Origin: a bacterium
GTDB taxonomy: Bacteria > SZUA-182 > DTGQ01
DNA: 64,000 bases
NCBI GenBank assembly: GCA_040755755.1
Contig: JBFLZW010000018.1
Span: 1 to 64,000 of the forward strand
Direction of reading: 5' to 3'
In this document: positions 28,747 to 31,049 of the stretch, piece by piece
Numbering within the stretch: the first letter of the stretch is position 1
Layout: every line of letters starts with the position of its first letter
Program-made: the position numbers and the translations under genes
The notes under the pieces: generated by a model
Databases searched by the model: none
Seen by the model: the letters and a program-made list of their open reading frames with translations, nothing else
What the model was told of the DNA's origin: nothing

Positions 28747-29418
28747 ATGAATCAAGGCAAACCAGAACAGAACGAGAATGACTTACCCGCCGGTTCCGCA
28801 GAATCCAGGGTTTTGCCCGCCGGGCATGATGAGCTGCACCCAAAATCCGAGGCCGTTTCCGTCAAGCCCCTTCCCGGCAACTCCCCTGCGGATGCCGGTG
28901 ATCCTGCCGGTGACCCGGTTAATGTTGTCAGCATCTTAAATAAACTGCCATGTCTGAACGGCAAGGGGATCATGGAAGCCGTCAATACCCGGATTCAAAG
29001 GAAGTCTTTAGCCAGAAACTGGATAAAAATCGTTGGTCAAAAGCTGGCAGAGCATACTGCACCGATAACCCTGCAGAACCAGAAACTCATCGTGGTTGTC
29101 GATGATCCAAAGTGGATGACGGCCCTGAAACAGACTGAGGGAATATTCCGGAAGAAGGTAAATGAGTTTCTCAAGTCAGACCAGCCGCTCAGCATTGAAC
29201 TGCGATTGGGGAAGATATCCCCCTTACTCTCTCGTCACCCCTCCTCACCGAAAGCAAAGCCGGAGCCTGCACCGGGGCTTACTGCCAAACAGGAGGAGCG
29301 AATCGAGAGCCTGCTCAGCCCCATTAAAAATAACGAAAAGCTCAAGCAGACGCTGAAAGACATTCTCACCAGACACTGTCGTCATGACCAGCGCTTCCTC
29401 GAAAAAGACTCGACATGA
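28747..29418 (+). CDS. DciA-like DUF721 protein
   Basis: A 223-residue protein with a central DUF721 domain (about 60-165): NWIKIVGQKLAEHTAPITL, LIVVVDDPKWMTALKQ, and an arginine/lysine-rich start. DUF721 includes DciA, the ancestral loader of the replicative helicase DnaB. About 55 N-terminal residues are Pro/Glu/Ser-rich and disordered in appearance, and a 50-residue C-terminal extension is charged. The start at 28747 comes directly after the heptad repeat (AGGGG 8-9 bases upstream). The identification rests on domain motifs; a true helicase-loading role is inferred. Confidence 0.75.
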   Translation: MNQGKPEQNENDLPAGSAESRVLPAGHDELHPKSEAVSVKPLPGNSPADAGDPAGDPVNVVSILNKLPCLNGKGIMEAVNTRIQRKSLARNWIKIVGQKLAEHTAPITLQNQKLIVVVDDPKWMTALKQTEGIFRKKVNEFLKSDQPLSIELRLGKISPLLSRHPSSPKAKPEPAPGLTAKQEERIESLLSPIKNNEKLKQTLKDILTRHCRHDQRFLEKDST

Positions 29419-29438: not shown

Positions 29439-29467
29439 TGGACAAATTCTCCCCTGTTGATTATAAT
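29439..29467 (+). promoter_or_regulatory. Sigma-70 promoter of the selenoprotein candidate
   Basis: TGGACA at 29439-29444, a 17-base spacer, and a perfect TATAAT at 29462-29467, about 65 bases before the ATG at 29538. Confidence 0.55.
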
Positions 29468-29537: not shown

Positions 29538-31049
29538 ATGCCAAGACGGTCCAATCTTCTCAAATTATCCCTTTTTCTCACCCTTGCTGGTCTGTGCCTA
29601 TTTCCCAGCCTGACATCAGCCAAACCCAGGATCGAGTTCCTGGAAACCAGGTACGACCTTGGAGAGATGTACCAGAATCAGGAAAAGAGTCATGTCTTCA
29701 AATTTAAAAATACGGGATCGGACACTCTGACGATCGAGAATGTCAAAGGCGGGTGAGGATGCACAGCCGTTAATCTCTCGGAGAGAGATATAGCACCGGG
29801 GAAAACCGGAGAAATCAAAGCTACCTTTCACTCGAAATCCTACCGGGGAAAGCAGAATAAAACTATATATGTAAATTCAAACGACCCCAATACTCCGGTA
29901 TTTAAACTCGAAATTATCGCTATGGTCAAGGTGGAGGTCGATGTCAACCCAAGTACCGTTAACTTCAGAGAGCTTTTGCCCGGAGAAAAGAAGTCCGAGA
30001 CCGTAGAAATAACCAATTTAAGTAATGATCTCCTCAAAATCAGTGCCATTACCTCCCCCCATGATTTCATCAATGTCAATCTGGCTGACCTTAAACTGCC
30101 TGTTTCCCTGAAATACAACGAGAAAATGTCCTTCAAGGTAGGTGTGGATGCAAATATCATGAAAGACAAAACCTGGGGGCAGGTGATTATCAAAACCAGC
30201 AATGTTCATACTCCCGAGGTCACTCTGAATCTGACGGGGCGTGTTCGGTCCGAAGACCAAAAGCCAATGGGCGCACCGAATTCAGCCCAGGCACCTCTGC
30301 CCCAGATCAACTATAGCGAGCGGGCAAAAAAGCTCTTTCCACTCTATAACTTCGTTGCCAATAACGTCAGCCAGAATCTGGCTGGCTGTAATACCGGGCA
30401 ATGTGTGCCCATGAAGGCACTGATTCAAGTGCTGACCGCTCAAAACCTGCCGGATGAGAAGATAACCGAAGCCGTACGGCAGATTTATGGCCCGGGAGCA
30501 GTAGTGGCATCATCAGGGAATGTGCAGCCGCCCCGCCCCTCTCTGAAAGAGTCAATTCAAGGCGCGCTCAAGAATGGCCGCAGGGCCAGGCTCGATCTCT
30601 TTGTCATGAGTTATTGCCCCTTCGGCGTTCGGGCGGAAAAAGCCCTTGACAGGATCATGGCTGAATATGGCTCGAAACTTGACCTGCAGCTCTACTTTAT
30701 CGCCCAATCCAGAACAGACAGCACATCTGACAAGCTGGCCGATTCGTTCACCAGTCTTCACGGCCTGCCGGAGGTTGAAGAGGACTTCAGACAGGTCCTG
30801 ATTCAAAAGCATTTTCCGGAAAAACTCCTGCCTTACCTGAGACTCCGGAACGAAAACATCAAAACCACTGACTGGAAGGAATGTGCCACCAAGGCAGGGA
30901 TCGACCTCCAAAAATTGGAGGAGCTGATAGCAGCCAAGGGGAGCCAGCAGCTCTTCAGGGAAAACCTGGTCAAAGCCCAGACCATGAATATCCATGCCTC
31001 CCCTACCCTGTTTATTGATAATGTTCGATATCAGGGAGGGTTTCAATAA
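29538..31049 (+). CDS. Candidate selenoprotein: exported DUF1573 domain plus thioredoxin-like domain
   Basis: A single 503-residue frame if TGA at 29754-29756 (codon 73) is read as selenocysteine. It has a signal peptide (about 1-27) and a DUF1573 Ig-like domain with YDLGEMYQNQEKSHVFKFKN; the family's conserved SCGCT is here GG-UGA-GCT, so Sec replaces the first Cys. The frame stays open and family-like afterwards (PGKTGEIKATF, YVNSNDPNTPVFKLEI). A second Ig-like domain follows (PSTVNFRELLPGEKKSETVEI), then a CNTGQC pair, then a thioredoxin-like domain (FVMSYCPFGVRAEKAL; cis-Pro loop ASPTLFIDNV). A SECIS-like hairpin lies 17-33 bases after the UGA. It probably acts in the periplasm in thiol redox chemistry. 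The alternative is a nonsense mutation. The end overlaps a convergent kinase by 38 bp and looks slightly short. Confidence 0.75.
29773..29789 (+). promoter_or_regulatory. Bacterial SECIS-like stem-loop
   Basis: ATCTCTC/GAGAGAT form a perfect 7-bp stem around the loop GGA (29780-29782). The loop starts 24 bases after the UGA and begins with G. Both agree with the known bacterial SECIS pattern (apical loop 16-37 bases downstream, G among its first two bases). It would bind SelB. Confidence 0.65.

Follow-up and report, generated by a model that had tools for sequence, protein, structure and literature searches.

The window analysed here, a stretch of 64,000 nucleotides comprising positions 1 to 64,000 of contig JBFLZW010000018.1, carries on its forward strand a frame at 29538-31049 in which the single in-frame stop is a TGA at 29754-29756 (codon 73), followed by 430 open codons up to a TAA. 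Read through the UGA, this is a gene of 503 codons, the UGA included, and homologues with 79, 60, 51 and 39% identity are colinear with its translation. A DciA-family gene (PF05258, 28747-29418), ending in a TGA at 29416-29418, lies directly upstream. A sigma-70-like promoter, TGGACA-N17-TATAAT, is found at 29439-29467 on the forward strand as a pattern match at 11 of 12 consensus positions, in a region where about 1.4 hits of any quality are to be expected. The protein begins with a probable signal peptide (aa 1-28, ...LFLTLAGLCLFPSLTSA; 29538-29621), recognized by eye, to which a hydrophobic helix that the predicted structure shows at residues 6-19 and the similar small-residue sites at the ends of the corresponding segments in homologues are added. 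The long open frame behind the UGA, the promoter and the export signal had all been proposed in the first-pass annotation, and they hold, export being probable. A conventional gene caller would give a 375-aa ORF from 29922 on the forward strand, without signal peptide and starting within an Ig fold; such a headless ORF is the usual annotation failure at a locus of this kind.

The UGA stands where DUF1573 proteins have the first Cys of their CGC motif, with the Cys at +2 retained, giving a Sec-Gly-Cys motif of U73 and C75 (Cys75 at 29760-29762). This position, as had been claimed from the sequence, lies inside the match to DUF1573 (PF07610, E=1e-30; 105.9 bits against a Pfam gathering cut-off of 26.1), a domain of aa 32-126 (29631-29915) for which an Ig-like beta-sandwich is predicted with a pLDDT above 90.

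The SECIS hairpin

Directly downstream of the UGA lies a hairpin (29773-29789, forward strand) in which ATCTCTC (29773-29779) pairs with GAGAGAT (29783-29789) around a GGA loop (29780-29782) that starts 24 bases after the UGA, i.e. with 23 bases between. The published bacterial SECIS model allows a loop of 3-9 nt, a stem of 4-16 bp, a G in the first two loop positions, a spacing of 16-37 nt and an MFE of at most -7.5 (PMC13188914). With a loop of 3 nt, a perfect stem of 7 bp, the GGA, a spacing of 23 nt and an MFE of about -8 to -11 kcal/mol, the hairpin falls within these limits, in agreement with what had been read from the letters by eye. By folding energy the short hairpin alone is unexceptional (47 nt, z about -0.9), whereas its 66-nt context is exceptional (z -4.35).

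Further evidence comes from comparison between genomes. The hairpin codons 79-84 are base-identical in four genomes, as against 15% of the amino-acid-identical codons elsewhere (roughly p=1e-5), and in the order relative the stem is kept with one A-to-G change that produces a G-U pair. In UGA homologues from other lineages hairpins occur at the same place with unrelated stem sequences. All 14 distinct UGA homologues have a stem of at least 6 bp near the right distance, and when each hairpin is scored in its own register the stem score is 17.4 for these 14 and 8.6 for 92 Cys homologues (p=1e-8). Eleven of the 14 carry a G in the first two positions of the loop, which the other three, from Spirochaetes, lack by simple scoring; in L017 and L050 the best stem stands 15 nt from the UGA by the count of the script, which is the near edge of the spacing range. 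Column-wise covariation over 12 divergent sequences in a fixed 7-bp register gave a weak count because the hairpins are shifted by a few bases between sequences.

Of the TGAs in the window, 72 have 50 or more open codons both before and after them, and three of these 72, the UGA discussed here included, are accompanied by a SECIS-like stem of equal or greater strength. What places this UGA beyond chance is the homology that runs through the stop, the TGA in five other genomes and the synonymous-site conservation of the hairpin. None of the other split frames among the 72 was a convincing selenoprotein candidate by stem score and motif.

Selenocysteine machinery and decoding of the UGA

The genes that decoding as Sec presupposes, selA, selB, selD and selC, are all present in the genome from which the window comes: selA, two selB genes, two tRNA-Sec (selC) genes and selD, which is a common selenoprotein gene and has an in-frame UGA of its own. 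The search covered the genome of the window and eight more from this small phylum, as well as others. TGA was found at the same codon in a congener (79% identity), two members of the family (60 and 51%), a member of the order (39%) and one genome outside the phylum (29%), and each of these five genomes (G001-G004 and G009) has selA and tRNA-Sec. Four relatives of the same class (G005-G008) have Cys at that codon and neither selA nor tRNA-Sec. Among named MAGs the TGA is present in 13 of 89 aligned places, five of the 13 being the same genes as in the genomes compared; the TGA-bearing MAG records are labelled Gemmatimonadota, KSB1, Calditrichia, Spirochaetes, Pseudomonadota and unnamed bacteria. 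Nearly all other homologues have Cys, and the homologues run past the codon. The Sec reading has withstood the refuting checks set out for it in the first-pass annotation. In one of the class relatives, which lacks selA, a DUF1573 homologue (L021, G007:C87:7577-8158) has an in-frame TAG, which may reflect a pseudogene, an error or recoding.

Taken at face value, the TGA could be a true stop or a sequencing error, which would leave a pseudogene, or a 72-residue product next to a separate gene from 29922, and the 375-aa ORF that a conventional caller would give agrees with such a view. We regard it as very improbable, since the same TGA occurs in five independent genomes at 79-29% identity, the protein is conserved on both sides of the UGA, the synonymous freezing is confined to the hairpin, and the downstream ORF has no signal peptide and begins inside the Ig fold. 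That the UGA is read as another amino acid, e.g. Trp by a changed code or a suppressor, has nothing specific in its favour and hardly deserves consideration, as UGA serves as the stop of ordinary genes close by (e.g. that for DciA), homologues have Cys at this place, and a SECIS is found together with a complete set of Sec genes. Pseudogene, sequencing error and recoding to another residue were thus all rejected on the conservation of the TGA and the synonymous-site freezing. Judged by these sequence comparisons, the gene very probably encodes a true selenoprotein that has Sec inserted at the UGA and belongs to the already known DUF1573 (OS_HP2) family.

Relation to known DUF1573 selenoproteins

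The first-pass annotation had also suggested that this is a new selenoprotein family, and this part does not stand. DUF1573 proteins with the motif UGC are tabulated as selenoproteins in PMC9312934 (2022), where Zhang and Gladyshev (2007) are cited, and in PMC13188914 (2026), and OS_HP2 is given as pfam07610 in the selenoprotein list of PMC2398784 (2008). Furthermore, an NCBIfam model, NF041425, carries the name 'OS_HP2 family (seleno)protein'. The published UGC tables and this model bear out the Sec reading and contradict a new family, so the idea of such a family was abandoned. The protein scores 79.2 bits (E=2e-22) against NF041425, below its trusted cut-off of 100 bits, and is therefore placed in the broader DUF1573 selenoprotein family rather than in the NF041425 subfamily; L017, a more distant UGA relative, reaches 102 bits.

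The gene thus leaves the count of selenoprotein families unchanged, and what it offers is a testable protein. It shares with OS_HP2 (PF07610, NF041425) the domain and the position of Sec in UGC, but is extended by a CX4C linker and a DsbA/GILT-like domain. Cys-type exported DUF1573 proteins (CGC), e.g. those of Bacteroidota and a paralogue at G000:C2:78526-79215 (40% identity), have the same fold and motif position, but carry Cys instead of Sec and lack the SECIS hairpin. If there is novelty, it may lie in the architecture: a Sec-Gly-Cys Ig domain, a second Ig-like domain, a CX4C linker and a CPFG DsbA/GILT-like domain.

Domain architecture and possible function

Behind the DUF1573 domain, a second Ig-like domain (aa 134-236, 29937-30245, forward strand) is indicated by weak PapD-like/Ig matches and a confidently predicted beta-sandwich. 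A helical linker follows with a CX4C pair, Cys284/Cys289 (30387-30404), which is kept in the proteins of the window, L011, L012 and L013; the idea, formed by eye, that this linker is CcmH-like was dropped as neither Pfam nor NCBIfam gave a match. The C-terminal part (30543-31046) is a thioredoxin-fold domain of DsbA/GILT type with Cys360 in CPFG (30615-30617), Cys449 (30882-30884) and an SPT cis-Pro motif, which bears out the thioredoxin-like partner domain proposed in the first reading. It matches Thioredoxin_5 (4e-9), DSBA (1e-7) and GILT (6e-4) in Pfam. Modelled alone with AlphaFold (pLDDT 89), it shows a thioredoxin fold with a helical insert and the cis-Pro present, and Foldseek retrieves DsbA, YjbH and GILT; a sequence search of solved structures gave no useful match. 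The fold and the cis-Pro region are those of DsbA/GILT/YjbH-type proteins, but the domain is joined to a Sec-containing Ig domain, and in place of the CXXC active site of DsbA-type disulfide oxidoreductases it has CPFG with one motif Cys, of which only the C and P are invariant among eight domain relatives. With one Cys in place of CXXC, ordinary disulfide exchange at this site is not assured. The whole-protein model has a pTM of 0.50, from which domain packing and distances between redox sites are not readable, and we therefore make no claim on contact between these sites. Only three genomes, all of one family, showed the complete fusion: that of the window, that of the congener and that of one further family member. 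In the second of the family members the frame stops behind the CX4C linker, close to a contig end.

DUF1573 is widespread and has no assigned function, and the existence of a Sec form fused with a DsbA-like domain suggests that the CGC/UGC motif is a site of thiol-redox chemistry. We consider it reasonably probable that the product is an exported Sec-dependent thiol-selenol oxidoreductase, in which the Sec centre would be coupled to the thioredoxin-like domain. For its mechanism, the following can be envisaged. The UGA is very probably decoded as Sec by SelA/SelB/SelC/SelD, guided by the hairpin, and the product would be exported with the Sec-Gly-Cys centre carried on an Ig-like domain. U73 and C75 may then cycle by way of a selenenylsulfide, with electrons passing between them and the thiols of CX4C and CPFG. 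A further step, which we put forward tentatively and would not bet on, is that the protein forms a self-contained exported selenoenzyme, its Sec-Gly-Cys being recharged within the chain by the CX4C linker and the one-Cys DsbA/GILT-like domain. Such an electron-relay layout is not described for DUF1573 selenoproteins in the literature searched.

The most serious competitor, unlikely in our view but deserving attention, is a selenoprotein that is not an oxidoreductase, whose Sec-Gly-Cys would serve to bind, or to deliver, a metal or selenium species, the C-terminal domain being structural. A Cys-type DUF1573 paralogue within a selenium gene cluster (selB2, the Se/S-carrier DUF3343 and YedF), the single motif Cys of the DsbA-like domain and the lack of a known function for DUF1573 fit with this, but Cys360 and the SP motif are invariant in the eight domain relatives and the CX4C is kept in four homologues, which speaks against it.

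A second selB and tRNA-Sec

Both species of the genus possess a second selB (G000:C2:79295-81350, in L142 and L004; G001:C90:15180-17502, in L143 and L129), which is 39-41% identical to the selA-linked selB and is located directly after a divergent tRNA-Sec; the relatives G002 and G004 gave one selB match each. The second tRNA-Sec (L004:1500-1590, reverse strand; L129:1501-1591, forward strand) carries a U instead of a G at discriminator position 73, and its CCA end is not encoded. Between the two species it has nevertheless changed at only 2 of 91 positions, in contrast to its diverged flanks. G73 was concluded to be essential in PMC5330540. Possibly the second selB and tRNA-Sec represent a second Sec-decoding set that was acquired horizontally; a genome with two Sec operons has been reported before, in Photobacterium profundum.

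The Cys-type DUF1573 gene follows selB2 together with Se/S-carrier (DUF3343) and YedF genes (L142:5217-9252, reverse strand; L143:11563-14984, forward strand). In G000 the cluster further includes a double-cubane reductase with its activase, in G001 a cysteine desulfurase/Sec-lyase-like gene. A tie to selenium has been published for genes of DUF3343, YedF and dehydratase/activase type (PMC5322559), and this neighbourhood links DUF1573 to selenium metabolism. Near the second selC, a fluoride riboswitch (RF01734) is present at L004:2198-2269.
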